From Ruegeria arenilitoris (lineage in GTDB: Bacteria; Pseudomonadota; Alphaproteobacteria; Rhodobacterales; Rhodobacteraceae), in contig NZ_WPZQ01000010.1 in the NCBI RefSeq assembly GCF_013030265.1, forward strand, positions 62,001 to 126,000: a stretch of 64,000 bases of DNA, read 5' to 3'. The notes beneath the pieces are model-generated. The model was not told the origin of the DNA. It saw nothing but the letters and a program-made list of their open reading frames with translations, and did no database searches. The position numbers and the translations under genes are program-made. Positions 25,705 to 62,705 of the stretch are shown here, one piece after another. Each line of letters starts with the position of its first letter. Position 1 is the first letter of the stretch.

Positions 25705-26320
25705 GTGAGACTCCTTTGATCTTCAGGATAACGGCCTGGGGTTCAGTTAAACTTGTAATAGGCTCCGCTTCGAAATTCCATTCCTCGCGGGCATCAGACA
25801 GCTCTTTTTTCCAGATTGCGCCCTTTGGGAACAAGGCTGTGCCATTTTCACCTAAATGCCTGTCACAAAAGGACATTAACTGGCGTAGATCCGCCAACGC
25901 ACGTGCAGACAGTATGTCGGCATTCAATGGTTCAACAGCTTCGATTCGTTTGGAGATCACTTTGCAGTTAGCTCCGCATTCACGAGACACAGTTCTCAGA
26001 AAAGCGGATTTTCTCTGATCGCTTTCAACAAATGTAAACCGCGTTTCGGGTGAAGTCTCAATTGCCATGATTGCGCAGACCATACCCGGGAAACCCCCAC
26101 CACTTCCCAGATCAACCCAGCGATCAACTTTATCCGCAAGACGAAAGACCTGAACAGAATCCAGAATATGCCGATCCCAGATGTCTTCCAGGCTTTTGCG
26201 CGACACCAAGTTGATCTTTGGGTTCCAACGTGCAACCAGATCGACGTAAATCGACAGGCGGTCTAATGTTTCACGTGAAACATCTAAACGCTCAAGAACC
26301 GCATTGTTTTCAGGGATCAT
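25697..26320 (-). CDS. rsmG: 16S rRNA (guanine527-N7)-methyltransferase
   Basis: Methylates G527 of 16S rRNA; formerly GidB. 207 residues with the SAM motif [16 protein letters not shown] and the family's [13 protein letters not shown] region. A perfect parS sequence is embedded near the 5' end, where it encodes VSRET. The ATG overlaps the mnmG stop (ATGA). Confidence 0.94.
26267..26282. promoter_or_regulatory. parS centromere site, inside rsmG
   Basis: The 16-base palindrome TGTTTCACGTGAAACA is a perfect match to the bacterial parS consensus. It lies inside the rsmG coding region and about 1.4 kb upstream of the parB start. Confidence 0.93.
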
Positions 26321-28194
26321 GCCTTGAGCGCTTTCTGTTCACGCCGCAATTTAGCAAGGACCAGCGTCAAAGCTGCGGGTGTTACACCTTCAACCCGCCC
26401 TGCCTGCGCTATGTTTGCAGGCTTCGCATTCGACAACTTTTGCTTCATCTCCGTGGAAAGACCATCCAGGGCAAAGAAGTCAAAATCGCGTGGAATTACA
26501 TACGATTCATCCCGCTTCATTGCTTCGACATCGCGCTTCTGCCGTGCAATGTAGTTTGCGTATAAGGCATCCCGCTCTACTTGCCGACGAATTTCATCTT
26601 CGGTTTCACCCAATCCCTCAACGAGAGGAAGCAGATCATCGAAGGTGACGTTCGGAAATGCCAAAATCGCCATCCCATCGCGTCGGTTCCCGTCCTGGTT
26701 AACCTCAATTCCAGCTGCGCGAATTTCTTTAGGTGTATAGGTTTGATCTGTTAGCTTTCCCTTAGCTTTATCAAGCTTATCCATCTTATTGTTGAATGAG
26801 GCCTGCCGTTCACTTCCAATGCAACCAATCTGACTCCCGATTGGCGTCAAACGTTGATCTGCATTGTCAGCGCGTAACGACAATCGAAACTCGGCGCGCG
26901 AGGTGAACATACGGTAAGGCTCCGCGACTCCACGGGTGGTCAGATCGTCCACCATCACTCCGATATAGCTATCGGCACGCGTGAAATGGACAGGATCTTT
27001 CCCTTGAACCTCCAACGCGGCGTTAAGACCAGCAACAAGCCCTTGGGCTGCTGCTTCCTCATATCCTGTGGTTCCATTGATCTGACCCGCAAGATATAGC
27101 CCAGGAATCTCCGGAAGAGACAACGAAGCAGTTAACACACGGGGATCGATGTAGTCATATTCGATGGCATAACCCGGCTGAAGAATCTCGGCCTTCTCCA
27201 ATCCCTTTATCGATTGGACATATTCCACCTGCACATCCTGGGGGAGCGAAGTTGAGATCCCATTGGGATATATGGTGTGATCATTGAGCCCTTCTGGCTC
27301 AAGGAAGATCTGATGTGAATCCTTATCCGCAAATCGAACGATCTTGTCTTCGATCGAAGGACAATATCTCGGCCCCACACCATCGATATGACCACCGTAC
27401 ATCGCCGAGCGCGAGAGGTTCTTTTCGATTATTTCATGTGTCTTGGCGTTCGTATGTGTGATGCCACAAGCAATCTGTGGAGCAACAACGGTTTTGGACA
27501 GGAACGAAAACAAGGTAGGTTCTTCGTCACCATCCTGTCTTTCCAAATCTGACCAATCGATTGTCCGACCATCCAGACGTGGAGGTGTACCCGTCTTCAA
27601 GCGAGCCATAGGTAGTGAATAAGTATCCAGCCGCTCTGCCAGCTTTACAGATGGTCGATCGCCCATTCTACCACCGGGGCGAGATACATCTCCGATATGA
27701 ATAACACCGCGCAGAAAGGTACCGGAGGTGAGAATTACTGTTTTCCCCGGGATTTCCGAACCATCCGCAAGCTTCACACCTGAAACACGGTTCCCATTCA
27801 TCTGGAAATCAACAACTTCGCCGGTAATCACCGAAAGATGTTCTCGATTGCGCGTTTCTCTTTGCATCGCCGCACGATACAAGGCTCGGTCTGCCTGAGC
27901 CCGTGGGCCTTGAACAGCAGGGCCCTTTCGACGGTTCAATAGACGAAACTGTATACCCGCCTGATCCGCAACACGCCCCATGACGCCGTCCAGTGCATCA
28001 ATCTCACGCACCAGATGCCCCTTACCCAATCCGCCAATAGCCGGATTGCAGGACATCACACCGATATCTGTTTCTGACAAGGTTACCAAAGCAGTGACAG
28101 CACCCATACGGGCTGAAGCATGCGCGGCCTCAGCACCGGCGTGACCTGCACCAATAACAATGACGTCGAACTGTGAATGTTTCACGTGAAACAC
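26317..28194 (-). CDS. mnmG: tRNA uridine-5-carboxymethylaminomethyl modification enzyme MnmG
   Basis: FAD enzyme that, with MnmE, modifies U34 of tRNAs (cmnm5U). The FAD motif [10 protein letters not shown] is at residues 15-24. 625 residues, standard. The start is GTG, and the N-terminus MFHVKH is the translation of an overlapping parS. The C-terminal Gly/Ala-rich segment [13 protein letters not shown] binds MnmE and tRNA. mnmE lies three bases upstream on the same strand. Confidence 0.95.
28178..28193. promoter_or_regulatory. parS centromere site, at the mnmG start codon
   Basis: Second perfect TGTTTCACGTGAAACA, covering all but one base of the mnmG GTG start codon, about 3.2 kb from the candidate oriC. 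Confidence 0.93.
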
Positions 28195-30911: not shown

Positions 30912-31361
30912 TCAGAACTTCAGAACGACCGCCAGAACGATGATAACCATCAAAACGGTCGGTACCTCGTTCATCATGCGGTACTGGCGCCCAGTGAGCT
31001 TATTTCGCCCCTCTAAGAAGTCTTTGCGTCGCGCCATCAGCCAGTGATGGAACCAGGTCATTCCAATCACGGCTGCACCTTTGACCCAGGGCCACGACCA
31101 GTCCCATCCGACAATCCCCGGGGTGAAGACCATGATCAAACCGCAGACCCACGCCACGATCATTGCAGGGCGCATGATGACACGAAGCAGCTTATCCTCC
31201 ATTTCAAAGAAGATTTCCTGCGCTCCGTCGACCGATTGTGCCTTTTCTACGTGATAGACGAACAGTCTGGGTAAATAGAACAAGCCGGCCATCCAAGAGA
31301 TCACGGCCATGATGTGTAAAGACTTCACCCACGGGTACAGCGTGAAAAGAAGATCAGTCAT
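30912..31361 (-). CDS. hemJ: Protoporphyrinogen oxidase HemJ
   Basis: Membrane enzyme oxidising protoporphyrinogen IX in heme synthesis. 149 residues with about four membrane helices. The family motif LYPWVKSLHIMAVISWMAGLFYLPRLFVYH contains the conserved histidines, and WFHHWLM and NEVPT follow. It is the last minus-strand gene before the gene-free origin region. Confidence 0.9.
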   Translation of the reverse strand: MTDLLFTLYPWVKSLHIMAVISWMAGLFYLPRLFVYHVEKAQSVDGAQEIFFEMEDKLLRVIMRPAMIVAWVCGLIMVFTPGIVGWDWSWPWVKGAAVIGMTWFHHWLMARRKDFLEGRNKLTGRQYRMMNEVPTVLMVIIVLAVVLKF

Positions 31362-31766
31362 TCTGGCTCCAGACGTTGCTCGGAACTCTCCCTAATAAAA
31401 AAATAAGAAAAGAAAAAGGAAGATGGTTTTGTAGGGTGAGTAAAATCCGTGGATTACTTTTTTACCCATGTGTTTTCCCCAGGTGGATAGAATAGTCTTT
31501 CAGAGGGCATGTTTTGTTGATACTGAAAATTACATATTAAAAACAATAAGTTAAGATCATTAAGATATTTAGATTCTGGGGATATCTCTTTGGGTAACTG
31601 TGGAAACCTCTCTTATCCAAGTTTACAAAGTTATCCTTGTCCCGATTGGACAGCGTTCGAGCGACTCATGGAAGTTTTGCGCGAAAATCCCGGGGTTGCG
31701 TGTCAACAGGAAAACCATACAAACCGTTCGAGAACACTCAACGTTTTTTCCACGGGGTTTTCCACA
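31362..31766. other. oriC: Candidate chromosomal replication origin (oriC)
   Basis: This is the only gene-free stretch over 300 bases. It is AT-rich (notably 31391-31430 and 31520-31575), unlike its surroundings. DnaA-box-like 9-mers (consensus TTWTNCACA) include TTTTCCACA at 31758-31766 (perfect), TTTTCCACG at 31746-31754, GTTTCCACA on the minus strand at 31599-31607, TTTTCCCCA at 31473-31481, and weaker TTATCCAAG at 31613-31621. One GANTC methylation site (31572) is present. Genes on both sides are transcribed away from it. The flanks rho/mnmE/mnmG/rsmG/parAB and maf/aroE/coaE/dnaQ resemble the Caulobacter origin. Confidence 0.75.
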
Positions 31767-32365
31767 TGTCTGTCCCCTTAGTTCTGGCCTCTGGTTCAGC
31801 AATCCGAGCGCAACTGCTGGAAAATGCCGGCGTCCCGTTTTCCGTCCAGGTGGCGCGCGTCGATGAAGAGACTGCCAAGCGCGCCCTATTGGCCGAAGAG
31901 GCTTCACCACGGGATATCGCTGATGCGCTGGCCGAACTGAAAGCGCGCAAAGTCAGTGACAAAACACCGGGCGCAATGGTTTTGGGTTGCGATCAGGTAT
32001 TGGATTTTGATGGTCAGCTGCTTTCCAAACCCAGTTCACCCGAGGATGCATTGGCGCAGCTCAAGGCGATGCGGGGTAAGCGACACATGCTGCTTTCCGC
32101 TGCTGTCATATACATGGATGGTGAACCGATCTGGCGCCATGTCGGTCAGGTTCGCTTGCGTATGCGCGCCAGTTCGGATGCCTATCTGAAGTCATATGTC
32201 GCGCGAAATTGGGACAGCATTCGCCACGCCGTGGGCGCATACAAGCTTGAGGAAGAAGGTGTGCGTCTGTTTGCTACCATTGACGGCGACTATTTTAACG
32301 TTTTGGGTATGCCCTTATTGGAACTGCTCAATTTCCTGGCGTTGCGAGGGGTGATCGAACAATGA
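31766..32365 (+). CDS. maf: Maf-family nucleoside triphosphate pyrophosphatase
   Basis: Septum-formation-inhibitor family enzyme hydrolysing modified or canonical pyrimidine NTPs (house-cleaning). 199 residues with [18 protein letters not shown] at the start, the metal-site CDQVL motif and the C-terminal [15 protein letters not shown]. The ATG is the first Met consistent with homology; its A is also the last base of a DnaA-box-like sequence. It starts the maf-aroE-coaE-dnaQ run. Confidence 0.9.
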
Positions 32366-45895: not shown

Positions 45896-48800
45896 TCAAG
45901 ATATCCGGTAGCGGGCCAGTGCATCTGTCACAAGATCGTGTGGCAGCCACATCAGGCTGGCGGTCCGGGTCCACAGAATGGCCGTTCGGATTTTCCGGTC
46001 GGGATAGATCTGCGCCATCGCCTGCGCATATGCACCCATCTGACGCAATAGACCTTCTGGGCAGGATTCCGCACTCGACGGAACGGTCGCATTTGATTTG
46101 AAATCAATCACATGAACCTCGGATTCGGTGACGATCAGCCGGTCGATCACCCCATGCATCCGGCGATCACCAAGAGTTGCTGTCACCGGCACTTCAGCAA
46201 GCGTGTCAGCGGCAAAGACGGATTGCAGATCGGGTGCGGTCAGAACCCGGGTAGCTTCGGACAAAAGCTCGCTCCTATCCGCCTCATGCATATCGGGCAG
46301 AAGCCGTGCGCAAAGCTGGGGCCACGTAGGTTGATCGGTGGCCGGAAGGTGTTCAAGCAGCATGTGCAGCAGCGTTCCACGCAGCTTGGCAGCCTCTTCA
46401 TCCTGCCCGGTGTCACCTGGCAATGTTTTTGCCCCGCCCAGATCAGATGGGCTGACGGTTTCTGCAGGTGTTTCGGGTTCCTGCGCAGGCTTGGTGAAGT
46501 AAACCGGCAATTCCACAACAGGCGACACTTGCTCGGCATGTTCCTCAAGGGGCGGCGCGTCCCAGTTACCATGGGAAAGCCTGCGGATATCGGACCCCGG
46601 CAGCTGCGTGGCCCCTGCCCGCTCCATCGCGGCCTCGACCATTTGATACCAACTGGTCCCATCCTTTCCGACATCCCCGGCGGCGGCAACAATCAACCAC
46701 TTTTCCGCCCGTGTCAGAGCAACATACAGCAAGCGAAGCCGTTCATTTTCTTCTCGGGAGCGGGCCTCTTCGCGTGCGCGGGAAATGAGTGCGGGGGAAA
46801 CATCCGCAGAGACTTTCCACAAAGGTGTGCCATCGGCGACCATGATCTCGGCATCGCGCGGCGGCTGCCTCTTGCCGGTATCCGGCAAGATTACAATCGG
46901 AGCCTCGAGACCCTTTGAACCATGAACTGTCATCACCCGGATCATGTTTCCAACGCCGCTCATCTGACGTTTGATCTCGAGATCGTCGGTCTGCATCCAG
47001 ACCAGAAAACCAGTCAGGCTGGGAATATCCGTTCGTTCATAAGCCAAAGCCTGCGACAGTAGCGCGTTGATGCCGTCTTCAGCCTCTGCCCCCAATCGGC
47101 CCAGCAGTTTGCGACGTCCATCATGGCGGGTCAGTATGCGTTCGATCAGATCATAGGGGCGCAGGAAATCAATCTGTCCCCGCAGATCGTTCAGCACCGC
47201 AAGCGTTTCGGGGAATTCTTCGCCGCGGTTGCGTAGAGCCGCCCACAGAAAGGTTTCTTTGCGGCGATGCGCCAGATCGAAAAGCTGCTGCTCGGTCCAG
47301 CCGAACAACGGGGATTTGAGAACCGTTGCAAGCGAGAGGCTGTCTTCCGGTGTTGCCAGAAAGTTAAGCAAGGCGGCAAGGTCTTTAACCGCCAACTCTG
47401 CCCCGACCTTCAGCCGGTCCGCTCCGGCAATCGGTAGTCCTGCTGCTTTGCAGGCTCGAATGATCTCGGCAAACAGATCTGATCGTCGCTGAACAAGGAT
47501 CAGGAAATCACCTGGCTGAACCCGGCGGCGAACAAAGGTGCCCGGCTTCTCTCCGTCCTCGGGGATTGTTTCACCGCGCTCGATCATTGATTTGATCGAG
47601 CTGGCTACTTGTTCGGCCAGAATGACCGTGTGATGCCTGGCACCGGGTCGGTCGACAGGATCGGTCCAGTCACCCTCTTCTTCTTCGTCGACCTTTTCAA
47701 CCACGGGCCACAGGTCCACCCGGCCCGGCAAGTCTGCTTTGAAGGCGCGGTGCAACGAGTCCTTGTGAAACCCTGCCTCAGATTGATTTTCGAACAGAAT
47801 GTCGACCAGACCAAGGATCGCGCTGGAGGAGCGGAATGAATACTCCAACGTGGAATCCCACAGTTTAGAGCCTGATTCTTCCAGTTTCCGACCAAACTCG
47901 GCCTGCATCCTGTCAAACGCCTGTGGGTCAGCACCTTGAAAGGAATAGATCGACTGTTTCTTGTCTCCGACCACAAAAATGGTGCGTTCGATGCCGGATC
48001 GCGCACCCTCACCGCTGGTGAATTCCTGTGCCAGTTTTTCGACCACATCCCACTGATCGGGGCTGGTATCCTGAGCTTCGTCCACAAGGATATGATCGAT
48101 GCCGCCATCCAGACGATAGAGCACCCATTCAGCCACTGCCGGATCGTTCAGAACCTGTCGCGCCCGCAAGATCAGATCGTCGAAATCCAACCAACCCCGC
48201 AGCTGCTTGCGTCGTTCATACTCCGGCAAGAACGCGGTTGCGAAGCGGTGCAGCACAGCGGTTTTCCGGGCCGCGACAAGCGCGAGGCGATGTTCGCGCG
48301 CGGCCTCGACCCGTAGCATCAAGGCCTCTAGCTGTGGCATCCGGTCCGCCAACACGCCTTCGCGCACTGCCTTGGTTGGGAAACTGTTGATTTTGGCCGT
48401 GAAGGGTTCTTTGGCGGACTTTCCGGTCAGAAAGACACTCTCAAGTATCGGAAGGTAGCTCAGCCGCGGCTCGTCAAAGCCAGACAGCTTGGCAGCAGCC
48501 TTGGCGTTATTGCCGCCGCTTTCGATCAGTGCGGGTAGTATGGAACGGATCAGTTCGACCTCGCCGCCAAGGTAAACCTGCCCCAGTAAGGTCTCTTCGT
48601 CGAAACCTTCAGGCAAGCCAAACCGTTGCTGCAGGCCGGACCAGTCCAATGGCTGAGCAAACTGACTACGTCTTTGCGTGATCGCCGCTGTCAGCTTGTC
48701 AAAACCGGTATCGGTGACATATCGCGCAATATCTTCGACCAGGCCGGCCTGAGGGCCGTCGGCGAAATCCTCAACGATTTCTTCGCGCAACAGGGATGCA

Positions 48801-49255
48801 GCGCGATCTTCCATCTCGGCGAATTGAGGGCTGACGCCAGCCTCCAGAGGAAACCGCCGAAGCAGTGATGCGCAGAAAGAGTGAATGGTTTGAATTTTCA
48901 GACCGCCCGGGGTCTCGATCGCGCGCGCAAACAAGGTTCGCGCCTGCCCCAATCGTTCGGGCGTGATAACTCCGTGCACGCCTAAGTCGGTCAGCTGTTT
49001 CAGAAGGCGTTCATCGCCCAGCATTGCCCATTCGCCAAGGCGCTTGAACAGGCGGTTCTGCATCTCGCTGGCAGCGGCCTTGGTGTAGGTCAGACACAGG
49101 ATGTGCTGTGGTTGAACCCCATCCAGCAAAAGGCGGGCGACCCGGTCGGTCAAAACGCGCGTTTTGCCCGATCCGGCATTGGCAGCCAACCAGGTCGAGG
49201 CATCAGGTCGCGCCGCTTGCACCTGCCGCTCGGTTGCGTCGTTGCGCGGGCTCAT
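45896..49255 (-). CDS. addA: Double-strand break repair helicase AddA
   Basis: UvrD-type helicase-nuclease subunit of the AddAB recombination complex. 1119 residues: Walker A NAGSGKT at 26-32, helicase Walker B VDEAQDTSPDQWD, and a C-terminal nuclease domain with VHVIDFKSN. The ATG at MSPRNDATERQ overlaps the addB stop (ATGA). The size and domains match alphaproteobacterial AddA. Confidence 0.93.
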   Translation of the reverse strand: MSPRNDATERQVQAARPDASTWLAANAGSGKTRVLTDRVARLLLDGVQPQHILCLTYTKAAASEMQNRLFKRLGEWAMLGDERLLKQLTDLGVHGVITPERLGQARTLFARAIETPGGLKIQTIHSFCASLLRRFPLEAGVSPQFAEMEDRAASLLREEIVEDFADGPQAGLVEDIARYVTDTGFDKLTAAITQRRSQFAQPLDWSGLQQRFGLPEGFDEETLLGQVYLGGEVELIRSILPALIESGGNNAKAAAKLSGFDEPRLSYLPILESVFLTGKSAKEPFTAKINSFPTKAVREGVLADRMPQLEALMLRVEAAREHRLALVAARKTAVLHRFATAFLPEYERRKQLRGWLDFDDLILRARQVLNDPAVAEWVLYRLDGGIDHILVDEAQDTSPDQWDVVEKLAQEFTSGEGARSGIERTIFVVGDKKQSIYSFQGADPQAFDRMQAEFGRKLEESGSKLWDSTLEYSFRSSSAILGLVDILFENQSEAGFHKDSLHRAFKADLPGRVDLWPVVEKVDEEEEGDWTDPVDRPGARHHTVILAEQVASSIKSMIERGETIPEDGEKPGTFVRRRVQPGDFLILVQRRSDLFAEIIRACKAAGLPIAGADRLKVGAELAVKDLAALLNFLATPEDSLSLATVLKSPLFGWTEQQLFDLAHRRKETFLWAALRNRGEEFPETLAVLNDLRGQIDFLRPYDLIERILTRHDGRRKLLGRLGAEAEDGINALLSQALAYERTDIPSLTGFLVWMQTDDLEIKRQMSGVGNMIRVMTVHGSKGLEAPIVILPDTGKRQPPRDAEIMVADGTPLWKVSADVSPALISRAREEARSREENERLRLLYVALTRAEKWLIVAAAGDVGKDGTSWYQMVEAAMERAGATQLPGSDIRRLSHGNWDAPPLEEHAEQVSPVVELPVYFTKPAQEPETPAETVSPSDLGGAKTLPGDTGQDEEAAKLRGTLLHMLLEHLPATDQPTWPQLCARLLPDMHEADRSELLSEATRVLTAPDLQSVFAADTLAEVPVTATLGDRRMHGVIDRLIVTESEVHVIDFKSNATVPSSAESCPEGLLRQMGAYAQAMAQIYPDRKIRTAILWTRTASLMWLPHDLVTDALARYRIS

Positions 49256-52179
49256 TTCACGTCCTCGGGGTGCGTTTCTGCGGTACGATCCCACTCACCA
49301 AACCGGGCAAGATGATCATAGTCGCCAATATCAGTATCCTTGTGTAGCATCCGCCGGGATGAGAAACCCTGATCAGGCTCTAAATAAGAGGAAATCAGCA
49401 CTTTCAACTCTGCAAGAACCTTTTCAGGCGGTTCTTTTGTTAGTGGTGCGCGAACCTCTTTGTAGGTTCCGCCCATGCCGATAAACACCGCCTCAGCGAC
49501 GGGTAAGGGATCAAACCCTTCAATACCGCCCTGCTCTGCCATGGCGGCTTCGATCAGCAGCTGTTTGTCGAATTTCGCCTGCTGGCTTTCAGTTGGTGGC
49601 ATGCCGGTCTTATAGTCGACGATCCGCAACGCGCCGCGGCTATTGCGATCGATCCGGTCAGCACGCCCGGCGATGGTGAAATCAAGCGGTGACAAGACCA
49701 GCTTCATTGTGGCCTCAAAGGCGACGGGACCACCATCCCCACGACGTCCGATTTCGGCCTGCAGAAAGTCATCGGCAATTCGTTCCAGACGCGCCAGCCA
49801 CAACTTGCGTGCCGTGGGCCAGGCTACGTGTTCATCCAGCAAAGCCTCAGCGCGTTTCATGAAGTTCTCACGTGACAACAACGCACTATCCAGAACGCTG
49901 TCCTGAATGAAATGTTCAAGTATCTCGTGGATCACGATACCACGCAGCAACGCATCGGGGGCCTGAACCAGAGGATCCAGAGGCTTCAGTCGCAGTACAT
50001 GCTTGGCATAAATCGCGTAAGGATCGCGGATCAGGCGCTTGATCTCGGTCACCGTCAGCCGTTTTGGGCGCGCCGCAACCGGCGGACGGGGTGATGGGCG
50101 TTGCGCAGCTACAATCTCGGGCGCATCTTCAAGAGTTTCTGACCAGTCCAGCCATTGCTGGCCTCGCGCTTTCATACCGGCCAAGGCTTCTGGGCCGCCC
50201 TGCCCCGATAACCCTTGCAGAAGGTTGGTCATGCGGTTCAGCCAGCGGGATGGAACAGTTTCGGCGTCATCAGAGCGGGTCGCCCGTGTCAGCCAAACTT
50301 CGGGCGCACCAACAGCTTGTTGGAAATCATGCGCAGATAGCCCAATGCGCCGTTCCGGCAGCAAAAGACCCGCCTTGTCACGCATTTGCCGGTTAAGCCA
50401 CGGATCCGGGGATGGCGCTTCGGGCCAGCTGCCTTCGTTCAAACCGCCTAGGATCAGAAGATCGGCTCCCTGAACGCGCGCCTCAAGCGTGCCCCAGATC
50501 ATGATGCGCGGGTGTGGTGCATCCCGGTCGCGCACTTCTTCACCAGCAAGTAATGCGCCCAAAAGATCGGCAAAATCATGAGCGGTCATCGCGCCGCCAT
50601 GTTTGGCTTCGTCTTCCAATGAGGTCAGAACTGCCAGCGCCTTCTGCCCTGCATTCTTATCCCATAGCGTGCCGGTTTCACCCGAGCTTCCTGCTGAAAT
50701 CGCTTCGGCCAGTTTGCGCAGGTGCTTGATCCAGTCCACCAGCGGGCGTTCGCCCGAAATCTGCTGATCACAGAGGTGCGTGGAAACCCAGTTTACCCAG
50801 TCCTCAGGGATTTCCTTGCGAATGGCGGCTTTGGCCAGGCTGTCACTGTCAGGGAATGGGGGTCCGTGGCGGCGCAAATCCAGTTCCAGATCGCGCGTGT
50901 TTAACAGATGCGCTCCGCGATCCTCACCGTCATGGCACAAGGGGTGCTTAAGCAGTGTAAGCAATGCCTCGCCATCCAGACGGCGCGTAAACAATCCGGC
51001 AACATGGCGCAGGAACCGGCCGGGAGGTGACAGTTGCAGTGGCAAACCAGCACTGTCATCCGGCAGGATGTTCCAACGGTCCAGTGCTGCACTGACCTGA
51101 CGGGTCAGCATTCGGTCAGGCGTGATCAGGGCAGCGGTTTGGCCAGTCTCAGCCGCTTGCCGCAGGCGCAGCGCAATGGCCAAGGCCTCAGCCCGTGGCG
51201 ACTGGGCTTCGACCAGAGTCAGATCTGCGGTTGCTTTGTCCAGATTGGCCAGCTGGGGACCTTCGGTCATCCAGGCATCGGTTATGGGCGCTGGGCGTAA
51301 TGCAAGAGATATCAACTGGTTACGAGAAGGTGAGGGGGCTTGTTCATCCGTCCAGTGTTGAATTTGATCCGGTTCTAGATCCAGCTCGCGCACCAGCTTA
51401 CGGAATCTGTATTGCGGATGATCCTCTGATGTCAGCGCGTCATCCAGCCGACGCCAGACGTGATCCGGCTGGTCAAAATCATACCCAGGCAGAACCAGCG
51501 CCCCCTGAGGCAATCGCGCGACGGCCTGCATCAGCATCAAAGTCGTCCCGCGCGAACCGGTCGAGCCTGCCAGAATGACCGGATGCTGAGGCGGCGCTAC
51601 CTGCCAGCGTGCGATCAGATTCTCCACCACCCGACGTTGTCGCGCGTTTACGTCGAGCGCGTCCTCATCTGAATCGATGAAGTGATCCGCGATGCCGATA
51701 AAGGCCTGAGCCCGCGCCCAGTGACCTGACATATCGCTTACATCCAGTTGGCGGATAGCGTCCGGAGACACGCCTTCGCCCTGCATCTCGTCAATCAGGG
51801 CGGCCAGACTGTCGGACAGGTCAAACAATGAAGACCGCGCAGCCAGATCAGGCTGTTGTTCAAGAAGTCTGGCAATAAGCTGGGTCAATTCCAACCTTCG
51901 GCGCAATGGTGGAATAGCAGGCGGTATTTGTGCCAGATCGACGCTTTCACCCAGATCGGTGACCAGCGAGAGTTTCGGTAACAGACAAGCCGGTTCCTGA
52001 TCGAACAGATCACGCACCCGTCGTGCCATGCGTCTTGTGTTCACGACCAGCTGCGCGCGCGCCAGTGCTTCCGGAGGAAAATGCGCGGACCGCGATTGCA
52101 GACCACGAACCAATGCCTTGGGAAAGTCTGCGCCGGGTGGCACTGCAAAGACACGGGGCAGGGTGCTGGCCTCAAACAT
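49252..52179 (-). CDS. addB: Double-strand break repair protein AddB
   Basis: Second subunit of AddAB. 975 residues: an N-terminal inactivated helicase fold (VILAGSTGSRGTTLMLMQA in place of a Walker A) and a C-terminal RecB-type nuclease with LRIVDYKTGMPP. I chose the ATG giving MFEASTLPRVFAVPPG, which overlaps the murU stop by eight bases. Longer in-frame starts overlap murU more and look unlike the family. Confidence 0.9.
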   Translation of the reverse strand: MFEASTLPRVFAVPPGADFPKALVRGLQSRSAHFPPEALARAQLVVNTRRMARRVRDLFDQEPACLLPKLSLVTDLGESVDLAQIPPAIPPLRRRLELTQLIARLLEQQPDLAARSSLFDLSDSLAALIDEMQGEGVSPDAIRQLDVSDMSGHWARAQAFIGIADHFIDSDEDALDVNARQRRVVENLIARWQVAPPQHPVILAGSTGSRGTTLMLMQAVARLPQGALVLPGYDFDQPDHVWRRLDDALTSEDHPQYRFRKLVRELDLEPDQIQHWTDEQAPSPSRNQLISLALRPAPITDAWMTEGPQLANLDKATADLTLVEAQSPRAEALAIALRLRQAAETGQTAALITPDRMLTRQVSAALDRWNILPDDSAGLPLQLSPPGRFLRHVAGLFTRRLDGEALLTLLKHPLCHDGEDRGAHLLNTRDLELDLRRHGPPFPDSDSLAKAAIRKEIPEDWVNWVSTHLCDQQISGERPLVDWIKHLRKLAEAISAGSSGETGTLWDKNAGQKALAVLTSLEDEAKHGGAMTAHDFADLLGALLAGEEVRDRDAPHPRIMIWGTLEARVQGADLLILGGLNEGSWPEAPSPDPWLNRQMRDKAGLLLPERRIGLSAHDFQQAVGAPEVWLTRATRSDDAETVPSRWLNRMTNLLQGLSGQGGPEALAGMKARGQQWLDWSETLEDAPEIVAAQRPSPRPPVAARPKRLTVTEIKRLIRDPYAIYAKHVLRLKPLDPLVQAPDALLRGIVIHEILEHFIQDSVLDSALLSRENFMKRAEALLDEHVAWPTARKLWLARLERIADDFLQAEIGRRGDGGPVAFEATMKLVLSPLDFTIAGRADRIDRNSRGALRIVDYKTGMPPTESQQAKFDKQLLIEAAMAEQGGIEGFDPLPVAEAVFIGMGGTYKEVRAPLTKEPPEKVLAELKVLISSYLEPDQGFSSRRMLHKDTDIGDYDHLARFGEWDRTAETHPEDVK

Positions 52180-52858
52180 CCGCCAGAAGACCTTCGGCCA
52201 TTGCGATACCTTCGGGTCGGCCCACATCGCACCACCGCCCGGGATACTGAACGGCAAACAATCGCTTTTGGTTGTGCATCTGGTCCCAGAGCAGGTTCAG
52301 CGAAAACGCCTTTTGCTGAAACGCGTGCAGCCCGTCGGTTTTCAGGATCTGAGCACCGCCATAGATCAGACCGGGGCCCCGGGTGATCCGGCCATCCTTA
52401 TCAATCGTGAAATCACCCTGTCCAGAATGCCCAATGGTCTGATTGACGGGGATGCACATGAGCAACGCATCCATCCGATCAGGATCCCAGGTTTCCCGCA
52501 GCAGTCTCAGAGGGTTCGGACCGGCCCAGATGGCATCGGTGTTCAGGGTAAAAACAGGTTTGGTGCCCAGTAGCGGAAGCGCGGCGCGCAATCCGCCACC
52601 GGTTTCCAGAATATCCGGTTCTTCACGTGACAGAACAACGTCTTTTGGCGCCAGATGTGCCTCAAGTTGATCAGCGCGATAATGGGCGTTTGCGACCACC
52701 TTAATCGGGCGCAGTTCGTCCACAAGATCAAGCGCATGGTCGATCAGGGGTTTGCCTGCAACCTCGATCAGGGGCTTCGGCCTGTCGCGGGTCAACGCAC
52801 CCATGCGAGTGCCAAACCCGGCAGCAAACATCATTATGGATTGGGGGCTTTGGGTCAT
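52172..52858 (-). CDS. murU: N-acetylmuramate-1-phosphate uridylyltransferase
   Basis: Nucleotidyltransferase of 228 residues with the GxGTRM motif FAAGFGTRMGALT, PKPLIEVAGKPLIDHALD and NTDAIW as metal site. Next to AmgK it fits the MurU role: making UDP-MurNAc from recycled sugar and bypassing de novo synthesis by MurA. Coupled to amgK by ATGA. Confidence 0.87.
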   Translation of the reverse strand: MTQSPQSIMMFAAGFGTRMGALTRDRPKPLIEVAGKPLIDHALDLVDELRPIKVVANAHYRADQLEAHLAPKDVVLSREEPDILETGGGLRAALPLLGTKPVFTLNTDAIWAGPNPLRLLRETWDPDRMDALLMCIPVNQTIGHSGQGDFTIDKDGRITRGPGLIYGGAQILKTDGLHAFQQKAFSLNLLWDQMHNQKRLFAVQYPGRWCDVGRPEGIAMAEGLLADV

Positions 52859-58133: not shown

Positions 58134-58688
58134 ATGGCAGACACTTCTCAGCTGGAAATCGGCCCCGACAAATCCCTGCTTCTGGTGGACGATGACGAGC
58201 CGTTTCTGAGACGTCTGGCAAAGGCCATGGAAAAGCGCGGGTTCGAGATTGAGACCGCCGGTTCTGTCGCTGCAGGCCGCGCAATCGCAACCGCGCGCCC
58301 GCCTGCCTATGCGGTGGTTGACCTTCGGCTTGAAGATGGCAACGGACTGGATGTCGTCGAGGTGCTGCGGGAAAAGCGCCCTGACAGTCGTGTGGTGGTT
58401 CTGACCGGCTACGGTGCGATTGCCACCGCCGTTGCAGCGGTAAAGATCGGGGCGACCGATTACCTGTCGAAACCCGCCGACGCCACCGACATCACCAACG
58501 CGTTGCTGGCCAAGGGTGACGAACTGCCCCCACCGCCGGAAAACCCCATGAGCGCGGACCGCGTGCGCTGGGAACATATCCAGCGGGTTTATGAGCTGTG
58601 TGATCGGAATGTCTCCGAGACGGCGCGCCGCCTGAACATGCACCGCCGAACGTTGCAGCGGATTTTGGCGAAGCGCAGTCCGCGTTGA
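58134..58688 (+). CDS. regA: Response regulator RegA (PrrA)
   Basis: 184 residues. Receiver with D19-D21 and phosphoacceptor D63 (VVDLRLEDGNG), same numbering as Rhodobacter RegA. A four-proline linker (LPPPPENP) leads to the Fis-type helix-turn-helix VSETARRLNMHRRTLQRIL. It regulates respiration, carbon and nitrogen fixation and photosynthesis genes in relatives. No photosynthesis genes are in this window. Confidence 0.96.
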   Translation: MADTSQLEIGPDKSLLLVDDDEPFLRRLAKAMEKRGFEIETAGSVAAGRAIATARPPAYAVVDLRLEDGNGLDVVEVLREKRPDSRVVVLTGYGAIATAVAAVKIGATDYLSKPADATDITNALLAKGDELPPPPENPMSADRVRWEHIQRVYELCDRNVSETARRLNMHRRTLQRILAKRSPR

Positions 58689-58716
58689 TTGTCTCGATTG
58701 GAGTATAGTATTTGGA

Positions 58717-59310
58717 ATGAAGCGCTCGTTCACTTTTCTGTTCATTTTCTTGTGCTTAACGACTAATAAAGCTCTAGCAAACTGTGTGGATTTAACGAAA
58801 GGTAACTCCTTTTCATTGACTAGGAATATCCCGCTTTTCGAGATCACAAATATCGTTGCCGAGGACGGTACTGTCGTAGAACAGCGCAGGATGCAGCGTG
58901 ATGGCTCAATTGAAAGAGTGGAGACGACTTATTGGAACGGCGTAATTGCTGTTGATAGGAGATCAAACTCAAGTCGTGTGCAAATCAAAATCAGTGAAGA
59001 AGCCAAGCTAGCGGATTTGAATAAGACGCGAAAAACATACAAATTTCCAATCTCGATCTTTGTGAATGGAAGAGAAATTGATCAGGGTTGGTATGTTGTA
59101 AAGCCAATGAAGAAAGTCCGAGTTTCCATCGACGGCTGCAAGTATCGTGCAATGGTTGTTCGAACCAGCATTGAACGGAACAGTGGGAATCCGATTAATG
59201 AGGAAGCGCTACTTAGCCTTGATGCAGGCATGCTTCTAGGAAATGTGGCGATGACGCCAGACTGGAAACCTCGCAGTTCTGTGCTTTTTGACAAAATCAC
59301 AGCGAATTAA
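58717..59310 (+). CDS. Hypothetical secreted protein, low-GC
   Basis: Not recognised. 197 residues with a signal peptide (MKRSFTFLFIFLCLTTNKALA, predicted cleavage before NC). The mature part is mostly beta with two cysteines (C22 and one in DGCKYRA), which could be disulfide-bonded. Its codon use is visibly AT-richer than its neighbours', suggesting recent acquisition. A GGAG is 15 bases before the ATG, somewhat distant. Between regA and a convergent HD gene. Confidence 0.7.
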   Translation: MKRSFTFLFIFLCLTTNKALANCVDLTKGNSFSLTRNIPLFEITNIVAEDGTVVEQRRMQRDGSIERVETTYWNGVIAVDRRSNSSRVQIKISEEAKLADLNKTRKTYKFPISIFVNGREIDQGWYVVKPMKKVRVSIDGCKYRAMVVRTSIERNSGNPINEEALLSLDAGMLLGNVAMTPDWKPRSSVLFDKITAN

Positions 59311-59332
59311 GTCGTGGTTGGATAGTTGAGAA

Positions 59333-59926
59333 TTAGAGTAGCGACAGCAACAGTTCATGCCGCTCGGTATACGCCTGCCGCACTTCAACCGCTGGCCTCA
59401 GCCTGATCTCCAACCCCTCCATCACCGCCTTATCCGGTCTACCAAAGAACTTCGTCGCCTCGGCCTCAGAAAAGCCCGCGATCTGGGTGGCCTCCATCCA
59501 GGCGCTGATCTTGTCGGCCTTCTTGATTTGCCGCTTAACGGTTTTAGGCACCGCTGCGGGCAGGCCGAACCGAATATGGATCGCTGCAGCCAGACGATCA
59601 TCCAGCGCACCGTAATCGGGGCCGACGGCAGATTTGACGGGTGAAATCATGTCTCCGATCACATATTCCGGCGCATCATGTAACAAAGCCGCCAGCCGCC
59701 ATTTTATCGGTGCTTTGGGGGCTATGCGGCCAAAAAGCTCTTCCACCAGAAGGGAGTGCTCGGCCACGGAATAGGCGAAATCACCCGCAGTTTGCCCGTT
59801 CCAACGTGCGACAAACGCCAGACCGTGGGCGATATCTTCTATCTCGATATCCACGGGCGTCGGATCCAGCAGATCCAGCCTGCGGCCCGACAGCATTCTC
59901 TGCCATGCTCTGGGTTGTGTTGCCAT
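59333..59926 (-). CDS. HD-domain hydrolase
   Basis: 197 residues. The HD metal motif is visible as AEHSLLVEEL followed by ALLHDAPEYVIGD (~87-99), with D in IKKADKISAW further on. It resembles YfbR-type 5'-deoxynucleotidases. The ATG at MATQPRAWQRM, with AAGG upstream, is chosen; a long upstream in-frame stretch is antisense to the next gene and has no domain. Confidence 0.8.
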   Translation of the reverse strand: MATQPRAWQRMLSGRRLDLLDPTPVDIEIEDIAHGLAFVARWNGQTAGDFAYSVAEHSLLVEELFGRIAPKAPIKWRLAALLHDAPEYVIGDMISPVKSAVGPDYGALDDRLAAAIHIRFGLPAAVPKTVKRQIKKADKISAWMEATQIAGFSEAEATKFFGRPDKAVMEGLEIRLRPAVEVRQAYTERHELLLSLL

Positions 59927-61955: not shown

Positions 61956-62705
61956 ATGAGCAAGCAATCCGGACGCCGCCGATTTCTGTTATCGGCGGCG
62001 TCTTTTGCTTTCAGGGTCGCCGTTGTGGTCATCCTGTTCGGAGGCGGCGGCTGGTTGCTGCTGGCGCATCCTGAAACACCCGTACCGTCGCATTGGAACC
62101 CGTTGCGTGAATTGAAAGTGACCGCACCAGTCACTCCGATCACCCGGTTTCAGCTTAATCGCGCGCTTGCTGATGAGTCGCAGTGCCGCGCAACGCTGGC
62201 AGAGGCCGGTGTTTCCTTTGCAGAGATGAATGATCTGATAGAAAGCGAATATTGCGGCATTCCGGGCCGAGGTTTGCTGTCTAGGCTGACTACATCAGGT
62301 GTGAACGCCGTTGAAACGAGTTGCACGACGGCTCTGCGCCTGACGATGTGGGAATATCATGTGGTCCAGCCCGCCGCGCAAGAACATCTGGGAACGCGGG
62401 TCAACCAACTGCGGCACGTCGGCAGCTATAACTGCCGCCAGATGCGCACCGCGCAGGGCGAGACCAGCGCCTGGAGCAGCCATGCAAAGGCCGATGCCAT
62501 AGACATCGTTGGTGTGCGACTTGACGACGGGCGCAGTCTGACATTGCTGTCAGACTGGCAGGCGGCGGGTCCTGAGGGTGCATTTTTGCGCCAGATCTGG
62601 CGCGGCGCATGTGACTGGTTTCGGGTGGTTCTGGGCCCGGATTTCAATCACTTGCACGCCGATCACTTTCACCTGCAGGGTCCAGGCTGGGGCTATTGCC
62701 GCTAA
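61956..62705 (+). CDS. Extensin-like family protein
   Basis: 249 residues: a membrane anchor (~20-37, VAVVVILFGGGGWLLL), then an extensin-like C-terminal domain with the cysteine pairs and GSYNCR, SSHAKADAIDIVG and FNHLHADHFH motifs. The histidines look metal-binding and peptidase-like (D-Ala-D-Ala carboxypeptidase fold). Its first codons contain the ahcY terminator, so expression depends on readthrough or a start further in. Confidence 0.83.
   Translation: MSKQSGRRRFLLSAASFAFRVAVVVILFGGGGWLLLAHPETPVPSHWNPLRELKVTAPVTPITRFQLNRALADESQCRATLAEAGVSFAEMNDLIESEYCGIPGRGLLSRLTTSGVNAVETSCTTALRLTMWEYHVVQPAAQEHLGTRVNQLRHVGSYNCRQMRTAQGETSAWSSHAKADAIDIVGVRLDDGRSLTLLSDWQAAGPEGAFLRQIWRGACDWFRVVLGPDFNHLHADHFHLQGPGWGYCR
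61972..62006 (+). terminator. Strong intrinsic terminator of ahcY inside the extensin-like gene
   Basis: A perfect 12-bp stem (GACGCCGCCGAT / ATCGGCGGCGTC) with a seven-base loop is followed by TTTT. It lies 30 bases after the ahcY stop and within the first 17 codons of the next gene. Confidence 0.85.

Follow-up and report, generated by a model that had tools for sequence, protein, structure and literature searches.

A probable replication origin between hemJ and maf in Ruegeria arenilitoris carrying a candidate variant DnaA-trio tract

INTRODUCTION

Is the gene-free gap between hemJ and maf in Ruegeria arenilitoris the chromosomal replication origin and, if so, at which of its elements would DnaA open the duplex? 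Opening of oriC is thought to depend on an A-centred trinucleotide that a single pocket of DnaA reads. This element, the DnaA-trio, was reportedly first described in a paper of 2016. The basal unwinding system consists of a DnaA box, a spacer (with a peak at 10–13 nt) and repeats of the consensus 3'-GAT-5' (PMC8287927; PMC6669920). The published search for trios demands three A-centred (NAN) motifs; 15% of the origins examined had no A-centred motif, and deviant trios without a central adenine were suspected (PMC8287927).

The DNA analysed here (the window, 64 000 nt, whose coordinates are used throughout) covers positions 62001–126000 of the 207,141-bp contig C2 in a genome of 4.62 Mb and 25 contigs. 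An initial annotation, made from the letters of the window, had pointed to the gap as a candidate origin.

RESULTS

The gap and its DnaA boxes

The gap spans 404 bp (31362–31765) and lies between hemJ (PF03653, UPF0093; 30912–31361, minus strand) and maf (PF02545; 31766–32365, plus strand), both identified by domain matches. As the initial annotation had described, genes point away from it on both sides: leftward, the minus strand carries hemJ, rho, mnmE, mnmG, rsmG (GidB), parA and parB; rightward, the plus strand carries maf, aroE, coaE and a dnaQ-like exonuclease gene. In the same genome the dnaA match lies on contig C5 and hemE on contig C14. Among the best 80 of 422 Maf matches, the nearest relatives of the Maf protein are mostly from Ruegeria. 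An Rfam search of the window returned no family at the gathering score, and a scan of 31300–31800 for sigma-70 consensus promoters and for terminators found neither; a conserved TTGC...TACAAA ahead of maf may be a maf promoter, although the consensus scan finds none. Elsewhere in the window, two adjacent long minus-strand genes (45896–52257) with UvrD helicase and PD-(D/E)XK nuclease domains are presumably an AddA/AddB-like pair.

On both strands of the gap together we found 10 sites with at most two mismatches to TTATCCACA. The runner-up among non-overlapping 405-bp stretches of contig C2 contains five such sites, and 2000 dinucleotide-shuffled versions of the gap all fell short of 10 (mean 1.4, maximum 7), so that the cluster of near-perfect 9-mers that had been noticed (10 in 405 bp) is above the shuffle expectation. 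The 'perfect' box reported with it does not exist, as TTATCCACA is absent from the whole window. The best box in the gap is TTTTCCACA (31758–31766, plus strand), which has one mismatch and ends, as had been seen, on the A of the maf ATG; it is conserved, with columns TCCACATG retained among relatives. All other sites have two mismatches. TAATCCACG (31448–31456, minus strand) adjoins the putative trios described below, and its GTGGATtA columns are conserved in relatives. It is followed by TTTTCCCCA (31473–31481, plus strand, partially conserved), CTATCCACC (31482–31490, minus strand) and the weak GTATCAACA (31515–31523, minus strand), then by ATATCCCCA (31577–31585, minus strand, conserved), the weak TTACCCAAA (31589–31597, minus strand), GTTTCCACA (31599–31607, minus strand), TTATCCAAG (31613–31621, plus strand) and TTTTCCACG (31746–31754, plus strand). 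A direct repeat of 29 nt with 72% identity (31456–31484 and 31741–31769) puts similar TTTTCC-rich blocks close to each end of the gap.

Of all 400-bp stretches of the contig, the one with the lowest GC (0.385) starts at 31235 within hemJ and extends into the gap, where duplex stability is low, as sought in an unwinding region. Contrary to the initial annotation it is not unique: the 400-bp stretches from 58685 (GC 0.407) and 58941 (GC 0.43) are AT-rich as well. The region 58685–59340, the second most AT-rich of the contig at this length, is without a box cluster.

parS sites and strand bias

Two perfect 16-bp palindromes TGTTTCACGTGAAACA (26267–26282 and 28178–28193), matching what we take to be the parS consensus, lie 3–5 kb from the gap, which is thus situated near parAB and parS as expected of an oriC. 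Strand bias was sampled in three single-contig relatives (G055, G101 and G093, in this order below) in twenty 20-kb blocks each. Left of hemJ the GC skew is zero or negative in 8/9, 8/9 and 9/9 blocks; right of hemJ it is positive in 8/10, 7/10 and 9/10 blocks until the reverse switch, which in all three genomes is found about half a chromosome away from hemJ. The remaining block of G055, 13 kb left of hemJ, has a skew of +0.031 contrary to the trend, while those of G101 and G093 lie past the reverse switch. Summed over the same blocks, the motif GGGNAGGG, which we assume to be KOPS, is minus-oriented left of hemJ in 16/20, 23/25 and 31/40 cases and plus-oriented right of it in 27/31, 23/30 and 36/43. 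Because blocks closer than 250 kb to hemJ are mixed, these data locate the switch with a resolution of about 200 kb.

On the contig itself, the mean skew is −0.040 left of the gap and +0.004 right of it, and GGGNAGGG occurs as 1 plus and 8 minus copies on the left and as 13 plus and 5 minus copies on the right. The cumulative GC skew has its minimum far to the right, at window coordinate 116,625, and GGGNAGGG changes orientation most clearly near 50–52 kb; neither falls at 31.4 kb. In the skew check proposed with the initial annotation, a switch is thus seen about the orthologous locus in three relatives (at ~200 kb resolution), but it is not sharp on the contig at hand.

Conservation of the gap and its relation to the Caulobacter position

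The spacing of hemJ and maf is 393–456 bp in 104 relatives (among 113 loci, taken from best-match lists). Two such lists supplied the origin set, one with the top 80 of 422 Maf matches and one with the top 30 loci from the 103 genomes in which hemJ was matched; together with the window it comprises 105 origins with 102 distinct gap sequences. Six loci with no hemJ or no maf match (L002, L003, L056, L066, L067, L081) and one with a 175-bp gap (L103) were left out, L001 and L084 are the window itself, and L066 was restored for a single table of 106 origins (TAG-only anchoring). Among the best-conserved columns of the gap in the 104 relatives and the window are boxes at both ends and in the middle.

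Two of the relatives bear on the parallel that had been drawn to Caulobacter. In G093 the order is rho-hemJ-hemE-gap-maf (hemE as PF01208), and in G101 it is rho-hemJ-hemE-gap-Kinase-PPPase-maf (PF01208; PF03618), where PF03618 is presumably the COG1806/DUF299 gene. The Caulobacter Cori is flanked by hemE and COG1806 (PMC1914354). Relatives in which hemE, alone or together with Kinase-PPPase, still adjoins the gap connect the two positions and bear the parallel out; on these gene orders, the hemJ–maf gap would most simply be the Caulobacter-type position after loss of the two genes. In the GC-rich G101 (L186), which has hemE and Kinase-PPPase at the gap, the longest C-free run from hemJ to maf is only 15 nt.

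A C-free tract with a three-nucleotide repeat beside a DnaA box

On its hemJ side, the gap contains a stretch of 54 nt without C on the plus strand (31393–31446), which we consider a candidate DNA unwinding element; no other run devoid of C, or devoid of G, is longer than 29 nt in the 64-kb window. Within it, AGG AAG ATG GTT TTG TAG (31417–31434, plus strand), read 3' to 5' as GAT, GTT, TTG, GTA, GAA and GGA, represent candidate variant DnaA-trios by sequence and conservation. On the plus strand the proximal TAG is followed by a 13-nt spacer (31435–31447) and then by the box CGTGGATTA.

In each of the 105 gaps the longest C-free run (median 45 nt) lies at this tract, and apart from the boxes the hemJ side shows the strongest conservation in the gap. 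The tracts of the relatives vary as three-base repeats, e.g. as ATG repeats, TTG repeats or ATG-ATG-ATT-ATG-TAG. A box with at most three mismatches is found 10–15 nt after TAG, TTG or TAA in 103 of 105 origins (spacer of 13 nt in 73 and of 14 nt in 26), under a loose rule for which shuffled sets reach 36 on average. Under a strict rule (box with at most two mismatches; spacer of 13 or 14 nt; TAG, TTG or TAA) 94 of 105 origins remain, whereas 40 rounds of dinucleotide shuffling gave 2.3 on average and never more than 5. Anchoring on TAG only succeeds for 87 of 106 origins and leaves 19 unanchored.

Measured against the basal unwinding system, the tract has a DnaA box with at most two mismatches beside the repeat (TAATCCACG) and a spacer below the limit of 16 nt (13 nt in the window; 13 or 14 nt in 99 of the 103 anchored origins among the 105), whereas at least three consecutive A-centred trios are found in 0 of 49 distinct tracts when the first three trios are read. 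The tract thus lacks the three NAN motifs asked for, the central base of the trios after the first being mostly T. Of 49 distinct tracts, 43 carry A in the middle of trio 1, and in trios 2–5 the middle base is T in 36, 38, 35 and 28; A-centred trios are not absent, with A at the centre of trios 2–6 in 10, 2, 5, 11 and 20 of the 49. The third trio usually lacks its G in the window's family (first base G in 11/49). G recurs at lags 3, 6 and 9 in the family tracts (z = 12.3, 3.7 and 7.8), but the spacing is not clean, as lags 4 and 7 are raised too (z = 5.8 and 6.1). Because position, strand, direction and spacing match those of the basal unwinding system, our reading of this T-centred tract, made from sequence comparison, is that of a variant DnaA-trio.

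The published A-centred rule, applied to the same 105 origins, picks different boxes in different species. Its hits fall into bins 31575 (33/105) and 31605 (37/105, the maximum at one place), and beside the hemJ-side box into bins 31440 (20/105) and 31425 (8/105); the spacer of the window contains a run TAA-AAT-GAG that satisfies the letter of the rule, as do runs at other boxes. A loose one-mismatch pattern of the tract was discarded as a detector, being unspecific (three matches in the window versus 0.64 expected).

Alternative roles for the central stretch and the tract

By nearest-neighbour energy, the 60-nt segment with the lowest duplex stability in the 64 kb is not the tract but a central AT-rich stretch (31517–31576). 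It contains an IHF-like site, AAACAATAAGTTA (31541–31553, plus strand), with one mismatch to WATCAANNNNTTR, which we take to be the IHF consensus; an exact consensus is absent from the gap of the window. A match with at most one mismatch occurs at the same place in 50 of 105 origins (six of them exact); for the stretch 31525–31570, 51 hits were observed whereas shuffles give a mean of 7.2 and a maximum of 15, and owing to this recurrence we retain the site as likely.

The low stability of the central stretch raises an alternative, namely that the gap is an ordinary oriC which unwinds at 31517–31576 with canonical A-centred trios by the box at 31577, the hemJ-side tract serving otherwise. The window itself offers five consecutive A-centred triplets 10 nt from that box. 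Across the 105 origins, however, A-centred runs at this box occur in just 33, and the central stretch is poorly conserved in sequence except for the IHF-like site, whereas relatives preserve the sequence of the hemJ-side tract along with its spacing and strand asymmetry; we regard central unwinding as rather unlikely, although it is the strongest competitor. A second alternative, that the tract is the promoter and leader of hemJ (elsewhere of hemE) and not an unwinding element, draws on its location 32–85 nt upstream of the hemJ start and on a minus-strand TACAAA 17 nt past the first hexamer of the box, a spacing like that of −35 and −10 elements. We judge it improbable: the consensus scan gives no sigma-70-like promoter, the tract persists without an adjacent hemJ match in L066 and next to hemE in G093, and we know of no promoters for which a trinucleotide period and the absence of C on one strand are known traits.

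Spread of the variant tract across Alphaproteobacteria

A sequence-only profile of tract and box gave one match each in 72 of 148 genomes of the order (E 0.01). In the seven of these 72 that also figure among the listed hemJ matches (G006, G023, G031, G043, G055, G075 and G092) the profile match lies 46–58 nt from hemJ. Over the class, the profile matched in 16 of 385 genomes, five of them in the family; the 11 matches outside the family are weak (E 0.00095–0.0093) and their number is about that expected by chance. Since a profile cannot keep up with the rapid divergence of the tract, the class was investigated by means of the regions upstream of hemE. From a sample of 57 genomes, 50 with hemE, two loci of the window's family with hemE off the gap (L277, L278) were excluded, leaving 48 hemE-upstream regions.

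These regions contain tracts like TGG TGG TAG TGG TGG TGG, six consecutive TTG, TAG TTG TAG TTG TGG, or five ATG followed by TAG. In the first 28 of them, G recurs at lags 3, 6 and 9 (z = 6.9, 8.0 and 6.1 against within-tract shuffles). An in-frame G run score of at least 4 was reached by 19 of these 28 regions (500 shuffles: mean 5.3, maximum 12), and among 32 regions with at least four boxes by 23 on the expected strand versus nine on the other. The same score is found in 10 of 16 hemE-upstream regions with fewer than four boxes and in 7 of 29 dnaA-upstream controls, whose base content was not matched (their longest C-free runs have a median of 15 nt, versus 33 nt). Because of these box-poor regions and unmatched controls, the class test separates origins uncleanly. 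In the 23 scoring regions the centre of G-bearing trios is G in 48, T in 46 and A in 40 cases. A comparable variant, with 3'-G, then T, G or A, then mostly T or A, is seen in many alphaproteobacterial families.

Outside the class, a C-free run of at least 30 nt near a box with at most one mismatch is present at 2 of 22 dnaA loci, and no tract common to these 22 loci was seen. Two proteobacterial loci outside the class (L314 and L316), with Asn and Arg at the positions 187 and 202 of DnaA discussed below, have TCA-type repeats near a box-like site; a simple pattern finds such C-centred repeats (read 3' to 5') at two of seven loci of their family, too few to use. In those portions of the literature on the DnaA-trio, oriC and unwinding elements that our search returned, we did not find trios centred on T or G described for Alphaproteobacteria.

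DnaA residues at the trio pocket

The DnaA of this genome aligns without gaps to that of B. subtilis (entry 8btg) over the initiator-specific motif, with Asn187, Arg202 and Glu228 of B. subtilis corresponding to Tyr212, Lys227 and Glu253. In B. subtilis, Asn187 contacts the central A of the trio, Glu183 is a second adenine contact and Arg202 and Glu228 contact the G; T or G at the trio centre impairs function and C is tolerated (PMC10721633). Among the best-scoring 28 of 57 alphaproteobacterial DnaAs, 27 carry Tyr at the Asn187 position and one carries Phe. The positions that read guanine are invariant in all 28, with Lys in place of Arg202 and Glu retained at Glu228. This set includes the own DnaA of this genome and one further family member; two of 30 loci (L253, L262) were left out because they yielded no usable protein. 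At the Asn187 position, the residues of six more alphaproteobacterial DnaAs are Y, Y, Y, F, H and S, and Q, T, A, S or N is found in proteobacteria outside the class; Glu183 is kept in the alphaproteobacterial DnaAs of the alignment.

A retained G at the first trio position together with a free central base fits the kept guanine readers and the changed adenine reader, and we infer that the residue change at the Asn187 position may be tied to the base change in the trios. Given the non-Tyr residues elsewhere, the sampling of the best-scoring 28 of 57 and the retained Glu183, this link between residue and central base is a correlation. A hydrogen bond donated by Tyr could conceivably create a preference for T or G.

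DISCUSSION

Taken together, the box cluster, parS and parAB nearby, a gap kept in 104 relatives, the strand switch at the orthologous place in three sampled single-contig relatives and the intermediates with hemE, or with hemE and Kinase-PPPase, uphold the origin reading of the initial annotation, and by this comparative evidence the hemJ–maf gap is very probably the oriC of this Ruegeria genome. The contig's skew minimum at window coordinate 116,625 would suit a DnaA-regulated divergent promoter region in the gap and an origin elsewhere, e.g. near that minimum, but with parS sites beside the gap, no other box cluster above five sites on contig C2 (the one contig of 25 scanned) and the strand switch at the orthologous gap of three relatives, this is highly improbable.

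We consider it fairly likely that this oriC is opened by way of the hemJ-side variant DnaA-trio tract, in a form widespread in the class and accompanied mostly by Tyr at the Asn187 position. DnaA would occupy the box cluster, and an IHF-like protein would probably bend the AT-rich centre. From the box at 31448–31456, a DnaA oligomer would cross the 13-nt spacer onto the plus strand of the C-free tract; we infer that DnaA binds this strand and that unwinding starts here. The oligomer would capture bases in steps of three nucleotides and open the duplex toward hemJ, and the opened duplex would permit helicase loading. In this model the proximal trio is the canonical 3'-GAT-5', and the following trios mostly retain the 3' G with T at the centre (elsewhere in the class also G). 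Whether alphaproteobacterial DnaA in general uses a distinct single-strand code 3'-G-D-W-5' (D = T, G or A) instead of 3'-GAT-5', read by a pocket with mostly Tyr for Asn187 and the guanine readers kept, is in our estimate evenly balanced.

The origin would by itself be an ordinary finding, and the origins of Rhodobacteraceae have already been predicted in bulk (PMC6699656); the new part is the variant trio with the residue that accompanies it. If the distinct code is real, it would represent a deviant DnaA-trio such as Pelliciari et al. (2021) suspected, and would show that the code for opening an origin and a residue of the initiator can change together. As the candidate spans many alphaproteobacterial families and comes with a nearly fixed spacing in the window's family, one C-free strand and a named residue difference, it makes that suspicion testable. 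It could also sharpen origin annotation, where the published rule scatters across several boxes in our 105 origins.

Like the Caulobacter Cori, the gap measures about 400 bp and has imperfect DnaA boxes and a candidate IHF-like site. Unlike the Cori, it is flanked by hemJ and maf and not by hemE and COG1806, and it lacks the CtrA pairs TTAA-N7-TTAA; the perfect spacing that the initial annotation had looked for in vain is indeed not found in the gap even with one mismatch allowed, and the TTAA copies at 31537, 31551 and 31560 are spaced by N10 and N5 as it had reported. The motif TGATCCACA, which we take to be the G-box, is absent from the gap, a further difference to the Cori.

In E. coli, the left half of oriC is arranged as DUE, R1 and IHF site. 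The window resembles it in that an AT-rich element precedes a DnaA box oriented as TGTGGATAA, with the order tract, box and IHF-like site; in E. coli oriC, TTATTAG is followed by 13 nt and then by the box TGTGGATAA. Where the DnaA of this genome has Tyr212 (the Asn187 position), that of E. coli has Gln. The likeness in architecture to the basal unwinding system of B. subtilis and other bacteria lies in a box, a 13-nt spacer and a three-nucleotide repeat on the same strand that begins with a proximal 3'-GAT-5', and the difference lies in the trios that follow, which are mostly T-centred in the window and in the class also G-centred.
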